The position numbers and the translations under genes were made by a program. The notes below the pieces were generated by a model. The model saw only the letters and a list, made by a program, of their open reading frames with translations. It made no database searches and was not told where the DNA came from. From an uncultured Eubacterium sp. (GTDB lineage Bacteria > Bacillota_A > Clostridia > Lachnospirales > Lachnospiraceae), in NCBI GenBank assembly GCA_948560485.1, contig CAOXUF010000189.1, forward strand, positions 1 through 5,130: 5,130 nt of DNA, in the 5' to 3' direction. Positions 25 to 5,130 of this stretch are shown here, in pieces (position 1 is the stretch's first letter; each line of letters starts with the position of its first letter).

Positions 25-26
25 GT

Positions 27-3000
27 ACGCTTGTTCTGATGCTGAAAAGTGATGGCGGGAAGACAGATTTTTATTTGGGAGCAAGACCTGTTGGGGACAA
101 TTCAGCAGGCACGCTGTTCCAAATGCTCAGACAGACACTTTTAGGATTTTTTCCGGGAAGCCGCATTACAGAGTACTATGATGAAGAAATGCAGAAAGAT
201 ATGGATTCATTAAAGGTTGGCTGCATTTCCAGCGTAACCTGTATTGCGGATTATAAGCAGAAAGAAGAAGCGGCATCTAATAAAGATTTTATCCAGGGAC
301 TGGAAAAATTCGTGTATGCTATGCAGGGAAAGAGCTATACTGCTGTGTTCATTGCGGATAGTGTCGGGCAGGAAGAGTTGATGCACAGAAAGCGGGAATA
401 TGAACAGATTTATACGCAGATATCCCCTTTTGCCAATATGCAGATTAACTTTTCGGTTTCAGACAGTGAGAGCTCTTCTGTTGGGAACAGTGAGGGGGTG
501 ACAAGAAGTACATCAAAAACCGAAACCCGCGGTATTTCAAGTACACGTACAGATACAAAGACAGATACAAATACGACAACGGCAGGATCAAGCCGCACAA
601 GAGGAATGACGGATACGGATTCTCGCACCTATACCCTATCTGATTCTGTTGCGAATGGCAAGACCCATACGACAGGGACATCTGATGGAACCAGCAGGAC
701 AGATACGAATACAGTTTATGCAGGTGGATCGGGTGGATTTTTCGGCTTGCTTAATGCAAATGCAGGTTATAGTCACTCCAATTCTGAAACGAAAAGTCAT
801 ACGGAATCGGTTTCTGATTCAGTTTCCAGAACTTTGTCACATGGTTTTAGCGATGCAAAAGGCTATAGCCATGGCGATAGTAAAACATGGGGGACAAATG
901 AGAGTGAAAGTACTTCAAAGGGCAACTCTGTAAGTGTGGGTACAGGCAGTAATGTGAGTACTTCCCATACTTCTGGTGATTCCTTTAATTTGGTGAATAC
1001 GACATCAATGACGGAGACCTTTGGTTCATCAAAAGGAGTTACGCTGGATGCAAAGAATATGACTCTAAATCTGACATTACAGAGAATAGCAAAGCATTTG
1101 GAAAGAATAGAAGAATGTGAGAGTTTTGGTATGTGGAACTTTGCATCTTATTTTCTGGGAGAAACGGCGGCAGAGACAGAAACGGCAGCTAATACATATA
1201 AATCCGTAATAGCGGGCACAGACAGCGGCATAGAAAGAAGTGCGATCAATTCATGGACTGATGAGGGAGCTTTGAAAAATGTATTACCCTATATCAAAAA
1301 TTTTCTCCATCCACATTTTCTTTACAGAGGATTCAGCTATGACAGGGAACGGTATGTTTCAGTCAATCCCTCTGCACTGGTAAGTACGAATGAACTGGCA
1401 ATTCATATGGGGTTTCCAAGGCATTCTGTCAGGGGTCTTGCTGTAGTAGAGCATGCGCAATTCGCACCGGAAATAATTACAAGGAATTTATCTAAAGGAA
1501 GCATAATAAGGTTGGGAAGCATCTATAATTTCGGACAGGAGACAAATGTATCTATGGAGCTCGATGTAGACAGTCTGACCATGCATACTTTTGTCACTGG
1601 CTCTACAGGTTCTGGAAAATCTAACACTGTGTATCAAATGTTGGCAAAGCTACGAAGAGAAGGAGTAACTTTCCTTGTTGTGGAGCCTGCCAAGGGAGAA
1701 TACAAAACGGCATTAGGAATGTTCCGTGAGGTTAAGACATTTGGCACGAATCCGAATATGAAGGGGATTCAGATGCTGCGGATCAATCCTTTCAAGTTTC
1801 CAGAACACACGCATATCTTGGAGCACCTGGACAGACTGATAGAGATTTTTAATGTCTGCTGGCCGATGTATGCCGCAATGCCTGCCATTTTAAAAGATTC
1901 TGTTGAGCGGGCCTATATGTCATGCGGATGGGATTTGGAAAAATCTACGAATAAATATGATGCGGTGCTTTTCCCGACCTTTAATGATGTTGTCAGTCAG
2001 ATCAAGATTGTCCTGAATGAGAGTGATTATTCTGATGACAATAAAGGCGATTATACAGGCTCTCTTGTGACGAGGGTACGATCACTGACGAATGGCATAA
2101 ACGGACTGATTTTTAATGCGGATGATATCAATGATAATGAACTGTTTGATCGTAATGCCATTGTTGACCTAAGCAGGGTGGGATCTTCGGAAACAAAATC
2201 GCTTATTATGGGATTACTTGTTTTAAAGCTTCAAGAATATAGAATGGAGCAGCGGAGCGCCGGGGCGAATACGAATGATGGACTAAAGCATATTACTGTT
2301 TTGGAAGAAGCGCATAATCTTTTGAAGAGGACATCCACTGCGCAATCCAATGAAGGAGCGAATTGGCTTGGGAAGTCGGTAGAAATGCTGGCGAATTCGA
2401 TTGCTGAGATGAGAACCTATGGAGAAGGGTTTGTGATAGCAGATCAAGCTCCAGGTTTGCTTGATATGTCTGTGATTAGAAATACTAATACTAAAATTAT
2501 TTTACGGCTGCCGGATTTTTCTGACAGGGAGCTTGTCGGAAAGGCTGCCAGTTTAAATGACAGCCAGATTGCGGAACTTACGAGGCTGGAAAAAGGGGTT
2601 GCGGCAATTTATCAAAATGACTGGGTGGAGCCAGTTCTTTGTAAGATTGATAAATTTGATGGCTCCGGGCAGTTTCAGATATCGGATTCCAAAGAAGGGA
2701 TACCCATTACCGCTGTTGACAATGCAAAAGTGGAACGATCACTTTTGGAATGTATTATGAATAAGGAAATATATAGAAAAGGGGACAGAGTGGATATTCA
2801 GGGATTAAGGCAGGATGTTTTAAGGTCGCAACTTTCTACTTCTGTTAAATGCGAATTTATTGAATATCTGAAAGCGGAAAGTGAAACGGCCCTTAAATCT
2901 TTGAGAGCACTTATTTATGATTTCCTTCATGCAAGCGAAGCGATAGAACAGTCAAGAAAATATAGCGATATCAGGGAGTGGGCAAATTATGTAGTGGATG

Positions 3001-3152
3001 CGTTAGAGCCGGATGTCAGGGGCTATAGCAAAACACAAATTGATTTGTTGTTGGGGCTGATTGTTAATGAGCAGGCATTAAGAGATAAGGATTACAGAGA
3101 TTTATTTTGTCGTTTTACAGAAATCTACAGGCGGGAAGGGAGGCTGCTTTGA
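27..3152 (+). CDS. HerA/VirB4-like P-loop ATPase (DUF87-type) with long Ser/Thr-rich insertion, 5' truncated
   Basis: Residues are numbered from the internal ATG at 39, but the real start is missing: the frame is open back to the adapter junction, and the first residues (TLVLMLKSDGGKTDFYLG) read as the inside of a domain. Residues 1-138 form an alpha/beta N-terminal region. It is interrupted by an alternating Ser/Thr insertion (139-331) and resumes with a helical part containing ESFGMWNFASYF. Next comes a segment with NELAIHMGFP (451-460) and a beta-rich stretch, then the ATPase core. The core shows Walker A GSTGSGKS (521-528), VEPAKGEYK (548-556), DLSRVG (710-715), Walker B ITVLEEAHN (752-760), DQAPG (802-806) and TKIILRLPD (818-826), whose Arg823 is a possible arginine finger. 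Residues 883-1037 are mostly helical and not recognised. HerA/FtsK and VirB4/TraC relatives are hexameric motors that pump DNA or power secretion. The toxin gene overlaps its stop, so toxin export is plausible. A DNA translocase is the alternative. Confidence 0.9.
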   Translation, partial: TLVLMLKSDGGKTDFYLGARPVGDNSAGTLFQMLRQTLLGFFPGSRITEYYDEEMQKDMDSLKVGCISSVTCIADYKQKEEAASNKDFIQGLEKFVYAMQGKSYTAVFIADSVGQEELMHRKREYEQIYTQISPFANMQINFSVSDSESSSVGNSEGVTRSTSKTETRGISSTRTDTKTDTNTTTAGSSRTRGMTDTDSRTYTLSDSVANGKTHTTGTSDGTSRTDTNTVYAGGSGGFFGLLNANAGYSHSNSETKSHTESVSDSVSRTLSHGFSDAKGYSHGDSKTWGTNESESTSKGNSVSVGTGSNVSTSHTSGDSFNLVNTTSMTETFGSSKGVTLDAKNMTLNLTLQRIAKHLERIEECESFGMWNFASYFLGETAAETETAANTYKSVIAGTDSGIERSAINSWTDEGALKNVLPYIKNFLHPHFLYRGFSYDRERYVSVNPSALVSTNELAIHMGFPRHSVRGLAVVEHAQFAPEIITRNLSKGSIIRLGSIYNFGQETNVSMELDVDSLTMHTFVTGSTGSGKSNTVYQMLAKLRREGVTFLVVEPAKGEYKTALGMFREVKTFGTNPNMKGIQMLRINPFKFPEHTHILEHLDRLIEIFNVCWPMYAAMPAILKDSVERAYMSCGWDLEKSTNKYDAVLFPTFNDVVSQIKIVLNESDYSDDNKGDYTGSLVTRVRSLTNGINGLIFNADDINDNELFDRNAIVDLSRVGSSETKSLIMGLLVLKLQEYRMEQRSAGANTNDGLKHITVLEEAHNLLKRTSTAQSNEGANWLGKSVEMLANSIAEMRTYGEGFVIADQAPGLLDMSVIRNTNTKIILRLPDFSDRELVGKAASLNDSQIAELTRLEKGVAAIYQNDWVEPVLCKIDKFDGSGQFQISDSKEGIPITAVDNAKVERSLLECIMNKEIYRKGDRVDIQGLRQDVLRSQLSTSVKCEFIEYLKAESETALKSLRALIYDFLHASEAIEQSRKYSDIREWANYVVDALEPDVRGYSKTQIDLLLGLIVNEQALRDKDYRDLFCRFTEIYRREGRLL
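453..1031 (+). other. Alternating Ser/Thr-rich insertion (predicted giant amphipathic beta-hairpin) in the ATPase
   Basis: ATPase residues 139-331 carry Ser or Thr at nearly every second position, for example SVSDSES, STSKTET and RTDTKTDTNT in the left arm and SHSNSETKSHTESVSDS in the right arm. The residues between are mostly charged, polar or glycine. The left arm covers about 139-227 and the right arm about 244-327. Between them lies a glycine and hydrophobic tip (228-243) containing GGSGGFFGLL. The two arms are almost equal in length, so the tip sits near the exact centre. The segment interrupts an otherwise globular N-terminal domain. A two-residue periodicity indicates beta-strand, not coiled coil. 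I infer a long hairpin; a disordered Ser/Thr linker is the alternative. Confidence 0.75.
549..709 (+). repeat. Short dispersed direct repeats, consensus ACAGATACRAA
   Basis: Three in-frame copies of an 11-base unit lie at 549-559, 561-571 and 699-709, the last with G in place of A at the ninth base. Each encodes Thr-Asp-Thr followed by Lys or Asn. The first two are separated by a single base and so repeat at a 12-base period. They are a by-product of the alternating Thr coding pattern and could allow replication slippage that keeps the frame. Confidence 0.6.
3138..3143 (+). promoter_or_regulatory. Ribosome binding site of the nuclease toxin
   Basis: GGGAGG lies 8 bases before the ATG at 3152, inside the last codons of the ATPase gene. 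It fixes the toxin start at 3152 and argues against the longer in-frame TTG start at 3107. The TGATG arrangement at 3150-3154 lets ribosomes that end the ATPase restart on the toxin, so the two products are probably made in a coupled ratio. Confidence 0.8.
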
Positions 3153-3859
3153 TGTCGGAAATTGGTTCGCCAAGAGAGATTAGAGATATTAAAACTCCGC
3201 AGGATACCAATGAATTTAAGCAGATTAAACCTGAAGAAGGGACTTCTTTTCAGGAGGCACAGGGGTTTTGGGATAATTTATTTGAAAAAGAAGATTTAAC
3301 AGACAGAAAGGATGGAGCCGGTTCTGAAACTTTTGATGAAGTGAAAAAACTGGAGCCAGAGAGTTCAGAAGAGCAGGAAATATGTTATTATGATGATAAC
3401 GGAAAATTGTATCGCTCTGGTAATGAACTGGTGCCAAGCAATGAATATGAGATTAACGGATATCAGTATAAGACCAGTGAAAACGGAAGTATTATTTCGG
3501 CCGAAGGAACACTGCATTTAAAGGAGCGTGAGGGCAGGCTGCAAATAAAGGATTCGATCAAGGATATTGGGAAGGGGGATGAAAGGGAAGGCGATGACAG
3601 AGGGCACTTGATTGGAGACCAGTTTGATGGTTCTAATGGACTGGAAAATATGATTCCACAAGATGCAACAGTAAACAGAAATGACTTCAAAAATTTCGAG
3701 AATTCGCTTGCCAGAGAAGTAAAGGATGGAAAAGTAGTTGAATATAAGGTAGAACCTGTCTATGAGGATGGTTCCAGAAGGCCATTGGCCATTGTAGTTA
3801 CATATAGCATTGAGGGTGAGGAAAGTATTAGAATTTTTCCAAATGGGGATGGGACATAA
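3152..3859 (+). CDS. DNA/RNA non-specific endonuclease toxin (Endonuclea_NS_2 / YeeF C-terminal type)
   Basis: The 235-residue protein is predicted to cleave nucleic acid with a single metal ion in a beta-beta-alpha-metal fold. The C-terminal part (about 98-231) has the family layout: EYEINGYQYKTSENGSI (98-114), a basic and acidic linker, then DRGHLIGDQFDGSNGLENM (149-167) and PQDATVN. Comparison with Serratia nuclease suggests His152 as general base, Asn175 as metal ligand and Glu183 as a further active-site residue. The spacing from Asn to Glu is 8 in both, so the site looks intact. Residues 1-97 are acidic and probably flexible, apart from a likely short helix TSFQEAQGFWDNLF (31-44). There is no signal peptide, membrane segment, LXG or WXG100 domain, so the protein is cytosolic unless a dedicated exporter recognises its N-terminus. 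The upstream ATPase overlaps by one base and the downstream gene is a matching immunity family. Nuclease family is confident; export by the ATPase is inferred. Confidence 0.9.
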   Translation: MSEIGSPREIRDIKTPQDTNEFKQIKPEEGTSFQEAQGFWDNLFEKEDLTDRKDGAGSETFDEVKKLEPESSEEQEICYYDDNGKLYRSGNELVPSNEYEINGYQYKTSENGSIISAEGTLHLKEREGRLQIKDSIKDIGKGDEREGDDRGHLIGDQFDGSNGLENMIPQDATVNRNDFKNFENSLAREVKDGKVVEYKVEPVYEDGSRRPLAIVVTYSIEGEESIRIFPNGDGT

Positions 3860-3928
3860 AAGTTGAAAAGGGTAAGCTGTTTTCATCATATTATGTGTCT
3901 GGGTGAAACGAAAGGAATTGATATAATT
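3860..3928 (+). other. Toxin-immunity spacer
   Basis: These 69 bases separate the toxin stop from the preferred immunity ATG. They remain open in the immunity frame from a TTG at 3863 and contain an in-frame ATG at 3893, so a longer immunity protein cannot be excluded. A modest AAAGGA (3911-3916) lies 12 bases before the ATG at 3929, which is longer than ideal. I see no terminator hairpin, so the toxin and immunity genes are probably on one transcript. Confidence 0.5.
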
Positions 3929-4303
3929 ATGAACGATAAAATTTTTCAGGAGATATTTGACAGACTTCAGGATTATTTGCCCGAAGATTGGAAACGGGTG
4001 ATTTATTTTGTGGGATACACAAAAGGAAGTTACAGCATGAAATTTTATACTCAAAATGAGGAAGGCGAGTATTTTGATTGCTTTCATTTACAGGGGATTA
4101 CAAAGGGACAAATAATAAAACTATTTATGGATATTGACAAAATAATTTCGAAAGAGCGGGCAAAACTGGCTGACAAAGACAAATGGTCGTCCCTTACAAT
4201 GAGAGTGGAAAAGAATGGTGCAATGAAAACAGACTTTGATTATGAAGATCATACAGATGATATGGTTTTATATGAAAAGAAGTGGAAAGAAAAATATTTA
4301 TGA
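3929..4303 (+). CDS. YezG/DUF600-family immunity protein
   Basis: The 124-residue protein matches the YezG (DUF600) family by eye. It has an N-terminal helix leading into LPEDWKRVIYFVGY (17-30), a beta meander with KFYTQNEEGEYF (38-49), a central helix IIKLFMDIDKIISKER (62-77), then WSSLTMRVEKNG (86-97), KTDFDYED (100-107) and a closing W..KYL (119-124). In Bacillus subtilis YezG neutralises the DNase toxin YeeF. The gene next to it here encodes the same class of nuclease domain, so the likely role is cytosolic binding and inhibition of that toxin. The acidic surface, including DFDYED and HTDD, suits a nuclease inhibitor. I chose ATG 3929 because family similarity begins there; starts at 3893 or TTG 3863 would add 12 or 22 residues with no family match. 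A hand count over 3901-4320 gives about 33% GC, lower than its neighbours. Such AT-richness is common in exchanged toxin-immunity cargo. Confidence 0.88.
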   Translation: MNDKIFQEIFDRLQDYLPEDWKRVIYFVGYTKGSYSMKFYTQNEEGEYFDCFHLQGITKGQIIKLFMDIDKIISKERAKLADKDKWSSLTMRVEKNGAMKTDFDYEDHTDDMVLYEKKWKEKYL

Positions 4304-4330: not shown

Positions 4331-5130
4331 ATGACCAAAGAAAAATCTTCCAAGAACAATCGTGTTCTCGATATCTACACCTGTTTGAGTGAGGGAAGGA
4401 TTGTTAACAAATCACAAAAAGCAAAGAAGTTTGGTGTGGATGAACGCTCCATTCAGCGTGATATAGATGATGTCCGCAGTTTTCTGGATGAGCGAAGGAC
4501 AGAAGGGGCGTCAGATGGGAGAAAGGTTAAGTATGACCGGAGTTGCAAAGGCTTTGTCATGACGGGGGCAGAGAGCTCAATGATGTCAAACAGCGAAATC
4601 CTTGCCGTGAGCAAAATCCTGCTTGCAAGCCGGGCTTTTACCAAAAAGGAGATAGGCGGTATTTTAAGAAAGATGGTAGATGGCTGTGTCCCATTAAAAA
4701 ATATGAAGCTGGTCAAAGAATTGATTTCAAACGAGCAGTTTCACTATGTGGAACTGCGCCATAAGACTTACATTCAGGACAGGCTCTGGCATATCGGGAC
4801 AGAAATAAGAGACCATAACATAATTGAAATTCAATATTTCCGTGCAGATCATTCAAAAGAAGCCGTCACACGCATGATAGAGCCTATGGCAGTCCTTTTC
4901 TCAGAGTATTACTTTTATCTGAATGCGTTTATTGTTGAAAAGAATGAGGATGGACGATATGCACATAAATATGGCTACCCTGCGATTTTCCGTATTGACA
5001 GGATTAAGGAATATAAAAAGATAGGGGAAAAGTTTCAGGTGACTTATGCAGACAGGTTTGAAGAGGGGGAATTCCGCAAACGGATCCAGTTCATGTACGC
5101 AGGGGAACTGATGACAGTACAGTTGAAATA
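4331..5130 (+). CDS. HTH-WYL domain transcriptional regulator (YafY-like), 3' truncated
   Basis: The frame from ATG 4331 stays open for 266 codons to the window edge. WYL regulators are often 300-330 residues, so perhaps 40-60 are missing. Residues 11-54 form a DeoR/HTH_11-like winged helix-turn-helix: RVLDIYTCLSEGRIV, then KAKKFGVDERSIQRDIDDVR, with the recognition helix at about 37-49. Residues 86-150 are the usual helical linker (SNSEILAVSKILLASRAF). The WYL domain starts near 164 with IIEIQYF, and EPMAVLFSEYYFYLNAF (184-200) stands where relatives have the P..L....WYL motif, with YFYL replacing WYL. The second half of the domain has YPAIFRIDRIKEYKKIGEKF (216-235). WYL domains bind nucleic acid or small ligands and tune defence and mobile-element genes. 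Its position 27 bases after the immunity gene permits co-transcription, but it may equally be an independent flanking gene. Family is confident; target genes are unknown. Confidence 0.92.
   Translation, partial: MTKEKSSKNNRVLDIYTCLSEGRIVNKSQKAKKFGVDERSIQRDIDDVRSFLDERRTEGASDGRKVKYDRSCKGFVMTGAESSMMSNSEILAVSKILLASRAFTKKEIGGILRKMVDGCVPLKNMKLVKELISNEQFHYVELRHKTYIQDRLWHIGTEIRDHNIIEIQYFRADHSKEAVTRMIEPMAVLFSEYYFYLNAFIVEKNEDGRYAHKYGYPAIFRIDRIKEYKKIGEKFQVTYADRFEEGEFRKRIQFMYAGELMTVQLK

Follow-up and report, generated by a model that had tools for sequence, protein, structure and literature searches.

What is a stretch of 190 residues, in which serine or threonine recurs with a two-residue period, doing inside the N-terminal domain of an ATPase that is encoded directly before a nuclease toxin? 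The window analysed here, the whole 5130-nt stretch of DNA whose first lines are shown above, raises this question. A sequence-only reading had described a nearly symmetric Ser/Thr alternation in a hexameric-type ATPase, had taken it to be consistent with a very long beta-hairpin, and had speculated that six such hairpins could build a multi-stranded tube. We examined the insertion, its relatives and their neighbouring genes computationally.

A truncated ATPase gene and its neighbours

All features described lie on the plus strand, and domain hits were taken from Pfam with curated cut-offs. Nucleotides 1-24 resemble what we take to be an Illumina adapter tail, so the contig begins within the ATPase gene and about the first seven residues of the open frame are an artefact. 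Directly after nt 24 the coding sequence matches a full-length protein of 1162 aa (P0001), listed at 100% identity over 100% of the window query, with at least one residue seen to differ by eye. The window's ATG at 39 corresponds to residue 126 of P0001; 125 residues precede it, most of them outside the window.

The ATPase (25..3152, truncated at its 5' end by the contig start) is of VirB4/HerA type (DUF87, 49.7 bits against a cut-off of 23.2), and its P-loop core belongs to the FtsK-HerA superfamily by score and by fold. Its stop codon shares one base with the start codon of a nuclease toxin gene (3152..3859), the product of which carries an N-terminal leader, FKQIKPEEGTSFQEAQGFWDNLF, common to relatives' toxins, and a C-terminal Endonuclea_NS_2 domain (PF13930, 95.9 bits, cut-off 27). 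A YezG-like immunity protein follows (PF04634, 40.3 bits, cut-off 21.7), placed at 3929..4303 from its ATG in an ORF that may start at 3863. The last gene (4331..5128), cut at its 3' side by the window end, encodes an HTH/WYL transcription regulator (PF13280, 30.5 bits, cut-off 21.8), and a related regulator recurs in 31 loci.

The insertion proper occupies 453-1022 of the window and residues 264-453 of the full protein. Arm 1 (453..719, residues 264-352) and arm 2 (765..1022, residues 368-453, with a conserved motif ending TL(T/S)HG) both show the Ser/Thr alternation and flank a Gly-rich tip with hydrophobic residues (720..764, residues 353-367). Over window residues 139-331 (nt 453-1031), 42% of positions are Ser/Thr. 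Within the insertion Ser/Thr positions have an autocorrelation of -0.30 at lag 1 and of +0.30 at lag 2, either value being reached in 0 of 5000 shuffles, and its sign alternates from lag 1 through lag 12; the remainder of the ATPase has no such periodicity (lag 2 of -0.01 before the insertion and +0.06 after it). No tandem repeats were found in the window at the DNA level. The arms, of about 89 and 86 residues around the Gly/hydrophobic tip, are in the same phase, and the alternation and near-symmetry first noticed in the letters are thus borne out.

Distribution of the ATPase and its insertion

Three protein searches scored at least 7996, 7998 and 7995 proteins, respectively (E <= 0.001), and the best 120 of each were listed; the matches listed from the third were mostly near-identical proteins. 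A scan of genome contigs contributed the best 80 of at least 545 confirmed relatives (L004-L083) and a scan of viral contigs three more, giving 83 loci. An ATPase ORF of more than 900 residues with a PAKGEY motif is present in 80 of these 83; the ORF is shorter in L003, long but without PAKGEY in L045, and was not found in L010. Hosts of L004-L083 are mostly Lachnospiraceae and other Clostridia, Oscillospiraceae included, together with Paenibacillus, Selenomonas, Leptotrichia and Carnobacterium.

Sequences were assigned by hand to group A (the window's subfamily), group C (the L001/L031 type) or group D (the remainder, mixed in make-up). The insertion ranges from 44 to 241 residues across the 80 locus ATPases. 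It is exactly 139 residues long in the core of group D, in 106 of 114 anchored proteins among the best 120 listed, and the same length occurs in 14 of the 80 loci. Loss of the insertion with the toxin retained had been named as a result that would speak against the hairpin. None of the 80 ATPases measured lacks the insertion; L034, however, keeps its toxin with an insertion reduced to 44 residues.

In the phylum of L047 the system was found in 3 of 199 genomes (E 1e-60), the query's own genome included, and so looks accessory. Serine recombinase-like ORFs were seen by eye upstream in L001, a viral contig, and the toxin-ATPase cluster may travel on mobile elements. A more distant ATPase (L086:1393-4500, 30% identical) has, by eye, a similar alternating Ser/Thr insertion beside other neighbouring genes, including an Hsp70-like ORF. 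The hairpin may therefore be older than its association with toxins and present outside the toxin cluster.

Arm lengths change in matched, even steps

In group A, arm 1 was measured as the distance L1 between the base anchor and the GKTHT-type motif, and arm 2 as the distance L2 between the TLTHG-type motif and the end anchor. The scan took in 200 ATPases (120 proteins and 80 loci), and all four anchors could be scored in 136; the 64 dropped for weak anchors comprise 59 from groups C and D by our own grouping and 5 from group A (P0016, P0115, L021, L024 and L060). An earlier regular-expression search had placed anchors in 102 of the 200 rows, 83 with a difference of 9 and 19 with other values that we read as motif mis-hits. 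The scoring matrices were built from those 83 rows and contain no length information.

L1 - L2 equals 9 in 134 of the 136 ATPases. The pairs (L1,L2) are (60,51) in 10, (62,53) in 51, (64,55) in 47, (66,57) in 7, (68,59) in 8, (70,61) in 10 and (72,63) in 1. In the two exceptions the arm-1 motif was placed near the tip, ambiguously in L018 (17.7 vs 17.2) and weakly in L015 (14.1). Since the difference is constant, every change in one arm has its counterpart in the other. A FastTree tree of the ATPase domain, covering 130 of the 134 constant-difference sequences, requires at least 23 changes of arm length, always by even numbers, and at least 63 changes of tip length through odd and even values. 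These paired two-residue steps would suit an antiparallel beta ladder rather than a coiled coil or a linker.

Group C behaves alike, with arms of (67,61) in 137 of 146 rows and a tip that is free in length, 120 of the 146 rows being close relatives of one query. Among its exceptions, L026 (75,69) fits a step of +8/+8, L037 fits only with its second-best match, and in seven other rows the arms could not be placed. The placement of indels within the arms adds little: over 65 cross-class pairs the median offset is 4 (MAD 3, range -8.5 to 35), in loose agreement with the offset of 3 described below, and the rank correlation is 0.27. Co-varying arm lengths, which had been proposed as support for a hairpin, are thus what the family displays, and independent variation of the arms, which would have counted against one, appeared nowhere that the arms were measurable.

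One antiparallel register in three subfamilies

Register was expressed as an offset x - y, where x and y number the residues of arm 1 and arm 2, each from the base of its own arm, and 26 registers were scored in each of five sets: three length classes of group A (A60, A62 and A64), D139 and C. The share of oppositely charged pairs is highest at offset 3 in all five (A60 0.81, A62 0.85, A64 0.79, D139 0.76 and C 0.97), against a mean over other registers of 0.47-0.49, or 0.71 in C. Pairs at offset 3 beat the best of 500 partner shuffles in A60, A62, A64 and D139; in set C they fall below it (0.967 vs 0.991). Such shuffles ignore relatedness and are weak alone; more weight lies on the agreement across diverged groups.

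Mutual information with average-product correction also peaks at offset 3, with z of 9.3 in A62, 10.1 in A64, 6.6 in D and 5.9 in C, where the peak is printed as offset 4 because the C anchor ends one residue earlier. The best parallel control reached z of 4.4 in A62 and 4.8 in A64. Registers of the same parity near offset 3 are raised as well. Offset 1 in particular has an opposite-charge share of 0.62-0.81, above the mean register in all five sets; by charge it takes second place in A60, A62 and D, and by mutual information it is second in A62, A64 and C and fourth in D. Group A shows a clear depletion at offset 5. At offset 13 the opposite-charge share is 0.62-0.64 in A62, A64 and D, for which we have no explanation at hand.

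AlphaFold (AF2) monomer models of two subfamilies draw the hairpin in this same register. In P0001 strands 325-352 and 368-395 pair with i + j = 720, and in P0121 strands 271-299 and 350-378 pair with i + j = 649, each equal to offset 3. Low-confidence disorder in prediction had been named as a result against the hairpin, and confidence is indeed very low, with block means of pLDDT within the insertion of 24-35 and 22-42, although both models draw the hairpin. Because the models were built from alignments of these same families, the register they draw does not count as evidence separate from the covariation. Taken together, locked arm lengths and one register found by charge and by covariation in three subfamilies support a register-locked, two-faced antiparallel hairpin. 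We conclude that the insertion is very probably a single antiparallel beta-hairpin, with arms of about 88 residues each, that rises from the ATPase N-terminal domain.

Two faces and a less polar tip

The faces of the arms were analysed in four segments of 131 group A sequences (3 of 134 were dropped for their anchor). In each segment Ser/Thr favours the same parity; there are three ties, in distal arm 1, and no reversal. One face of arm 1 is 71% Ser/Thr and 19% Gly; the opposite face is 57% D/E/K/R/H/N/Q and 20% V/I/L/M/F/Y/W, and near the tip several positions of this charged face are 60-80% hydrophobic.

Polarity is lowest in the tip, where mean hydropathy is -0.03 in group A against -1.12 and -0.73 in the arms, and +1.10 in group D against -0.77 and -1.43. 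A hydropathy above 1.6 over 19 residues is reached by 47 of 97 tips in D and 3 of 131 in A, where tips are at most amphipathic. This suggests that the group A tip may be suited to a beta-type membrane contact and the group D tip to a helical one. The antiparallel, two-faced hairpin characteristic of beta-barrel pore formers is thus present on sequence evidence.

These features also bear on whether the insertion is a disordered, low-complexity Ser/Thr linker. Its composition and the AF2 pLDDT of 22-42 are what such a linker would give. A constant arm difference, charge pairing and covariation that are specific to one register, and the lack of any phase reversal in 131 sequences are not, and we find the linker scarcely credible. 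Disorder of the insertion was accordingly rejected on length locking, register and faces.

Conserved neighbours of the ATPase gene

The surrounding genes were surveyed in 81 loci listed with an ATPase ORF of more than 650 residues. In 80 of them the ATPase is followed directly by a same-strand ORF of 90 residues or more, the exception being L006, where the contig stops 123 bases past the ATPase; one further ORF is present in 71. Eighty adjacent ORFs were scanned with Pfam (the window and 79 loci, with L002 left out as a near copy of L001). Colicin-DNase was found in 36, WHH in 36 and Endonuclea_NS_2 in 20, and LHH (6), GH-E (2) and one glutamine deamidase were less common; the LXG domain is absent from the 11 Pfam families found in these toxins (E 0.001). 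Among 66 following genes (the window and 65 of the 71 loci, leaving out L032, L046, L055, L067, L069 and L076), DUF6985 occurred in 19, a YezG-like family in 14 and SMI1_KNR4 (SUKH-1) in 13. A variable C-terminal toxin domain with an adjacent immunity gene is the arrangement of a polymorphic toxin-immunity locus, and the families found here are ones that we assign to polymorphic interbacterial toxins.

Upstream of the ATPase, single linkage joined related ORFs from 72 of the 81 loci into one cluster. Where 3.5 kb or more of upstream sequence is available (71 loci), 68 have a member, and Dynamin_N was detected in 5 of 5 members tested, from four loci. In 45 loci a small protein is encoded whose C-terminal part contains a hydrophobic stretch; 44 of its 47 copies exceed a hydropathy of 1.6, and the median position of the stretch is 0.88. 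The usual order is dynamin-like GTPase, often the small membrane protein, ATPase, leader toxin and immunity protein, and the sequence data support conservation of GTPase, ATPase, toxin and immunity genes as one cluster. A further downstream gene occurs in related form in 14 loci, L001 (12375-13067) and 13 others. The copies seen start with a toxin-like leader, the one copy scanned, that of L001, carries a putative metallopeptidase domain (DUF6782), and the family may represent a second cargo or a processing enzyme.

Three loci, L025, L029 and L034, have no dynamin-like gene and instead carry three P-loop GTPase-like genes directly upstream (277 to 564 residues, motifs read by eye). They also have the shortest group C insertions, of 105, 118 and 44 residues, respectively, and hairpin length may follow the GTPase set. 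This co-occurrence would be expected if the hairpin were real but solid, a stalk, ruler or docking arm that reaches the membrane, the GTPase or a target surface with no cargo inside. The fixed lengths within groups, 139 in 106 of 114 in D and 67/61 in 137 of 146 in C, agree with such a ruler. A small Ser/Thr/Gly face opposite a charged one that turns hydrophobic towards the tip is, however, what the wall of a tube would require, and we give the solid stalk, one of the two main rivals to a delivery tube, a minor share of the probability.

Leader type follows the ATPase C-terminal domain

The toxin leaders fall into several types. KxIKPE occurs in 24 of 28 toxins of group C, 3 of 20 of group A and 2 of 32 of group D; RFADSxLGK was found in 12 of 32 in D and a SERP type in 4 of 20 in A, and 35 of the 80 leaders fit none of the patterns written. 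Single-linkage clustering of the ATPase C-terminal domains merged 67 of 80 and was uninformative, and nearest neighbours were used instead, with slightly broader leader patterns and without matches above 80% identity. Chosen by the C-terminal domain, the closest neighbour with a typed leader agrees in leader type in 52 of 53 cases; chosen by the N-terminal domain, it agrees in 43 of 53.

The ATPases of the window, L004, L005 and L015 have a group A hairpin but the leader of group C, and the closest C-terminal domains to theirs outside A are those of C or L041. The window ATPase itself appears chimeric, with a hairpin half like that of P0041 and a C-terminal half like that of L001, and the toxin leader follows the C-terminal half. 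That leader type follows the C-terminal domain points to cargo recognition, and suggests that this domain may read the toxin leader and that hairpin half and C-terminal half can be swapped.

The same genes could be read as an intracellular conflict system, in which GTPase and ATPase would detect an invader and then set free or switch on the nuclease within the producer, the immunity protein would be an antitoxin, and the hairpin would be a membrane or partner sensor with no channel. HerA-type ATPases are known from phage defence, and this one is matched by HerA models of PADLOC; one upstream GTPase has a weak match to LeoA (22.7 bits). WYL regulators, too, occur in defence loci. Such a reading sits poorly with toxin and immunity families that we take to be of the polymorphic interbacterial type, and with immunity genes of several unrelated families after the toxin. 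It also leaves aside the recurrent leader before a variable toxin domain, a pattern that the available part of PMC7159879 links to trafficking. We therefore give intracellular conflict only a minor share of the probability.

Comparison with HerA, type VII secretion and pore formers

The VirB4/HerA branch of FtsK-HerA pumping ATPases shares with this ATPase the P-loop core and a VirB4-like fold, which the ATPase was found to have. The recurrent neighbours of this ATPase, which are GTPase, toxin and immunity genes, set it apart, and so may the 190-residue hairpin that interrupts its N-terminal domain. The score of the VirB4_CagE model TIGR00929 (13.2 vs 643.1) is below its cut-off, and T4SS parts were found neither among the recurrent neighbour families listed nor in the 9 neighbour proteins scanned with Pfam. 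The serine-rich protein model NF033849 (ser_rich_anae_1) reached 88.8 bits of a required 650 with the truncated window protein as query, its best stretch being residues 445-836 of that protein.

A DNA translocase or helicase that works with a nuclease, like HerA-NurA, and uses the insertion as a DNA-binding or spacer element would account for the closest folds, which include HerA complexes with nucleases or effectors, and for NCBIfam matches that include the DNA-translocating CedD (83/600 bits). Yet the nuclease domain varies among loci, an immunity-type gene usually stands next to it, and the HerA equivalog cut-offs are far off (NF040937 62.5/800, NF040819 46.5/970 and NF042943 44.5/800), which makes this reading very improbable.

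Type VII secretion in Bacillota combines the FtsK/HerA-type ATPase EssC with LXG polymorphic toxins and YezG-like immunity proteins. An ATPase of this type, polymorphic toxins and YezG-like immunity are common to both systems, whereas here the toxins have a short leader motif, the cluster includes a dynamin-like GTPase, and LXG is found in 0 of 80 toxins (E 0.001). Beta-barrel pore formers such as those of the aerolysin type and anthrax protective antigen have stems of long, two-faced hairpins. The working idea would be similar, a polar stem with a less polar tip, whereas here the hairpin belongs to a translocase-type ATPase. The titles and abstract beginnings listed from the open literature, a set that excludes preprints and most subscription papers, contained no description of this ATPase, hairpin or cluster, and the available parts of PMC3482391 and PMC7159879 gave no account of them.

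A candidate toxin translocase with a self-built tube

The best explanation, which we favour with moderate confidence and which is partly inferred, is a machine that translocates the toxin through a polar tube, built from its hairpins and ending at a membrane. The ATPase would, by homology, form a ring. Adjacent subunits would line up their hairpins edge to edge to form a polar beta-tube, with the small Ser/Thr/Gly face lining the lumen and the charged face exposed to solvent, and their amphipathic or hydrophobic tips would touch or enter the membrane. The ATPase C-terminal domain would bind the N-terminal leader of the neighbouring toxin, and ATP hydrolysis would thread the toxin through ring and tube, either to the outside or into a neighbouring cell. 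The upstream GTPase or GTPases and the small membrane protein may mould the membrane where the tube ends or hold it in place there, and the immunity protein, judging from its family, would protect the producer. Taken singly, we regard a tube formed by the hairpins of several subunits as somewhat probable, and translocation of the toxin by the ATPase as probable to a like degree. L034, which retains toxin and leader with an insertion of 44 residues, is among the observations that count against this explanation.

Six subunits in a closed beta-tube would contribute 12 strands. By arithmetic, a 12-strand barrel with a shear number of 12 has a backbone radius of about 10.6 angstrom and, with the window's arms, a length of about 230 angstrom. 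The signal at offset 1 might be what pairing between neighbouring subunits gives in such a barrel; diagonal contacts inside one hairpin could be another source of it, and offset 13 stands out as well. That a ring ATPase, a self-built closed beta-tube, a membrane-entering tip, leader-tagged toxins fed in by way of the C-terminal domain and a dynamin-like GTPase together make up a new class of protein-delivery machine is a tentative proposal, to which we give somewhat less than an even chance.

The hairpin itself is a case in which sequence-only evidence describes a very long beta-hairpin that structure prediction scores low, and it warns that such low-confidence regions should not be dismissed as low complexity. 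The apparent swap of a hairpin half and a cargo-recognition half is open to direct testing. If the proposed translocase is real, the ATPase brings its own conduit and a delivery system may need few genes, and Bacillota of the gut and elsewhere, among them Lachnospiraceae, Oscillospiraceae, Selenomonas and Paenibacillus, would possess an extra type of weapon.
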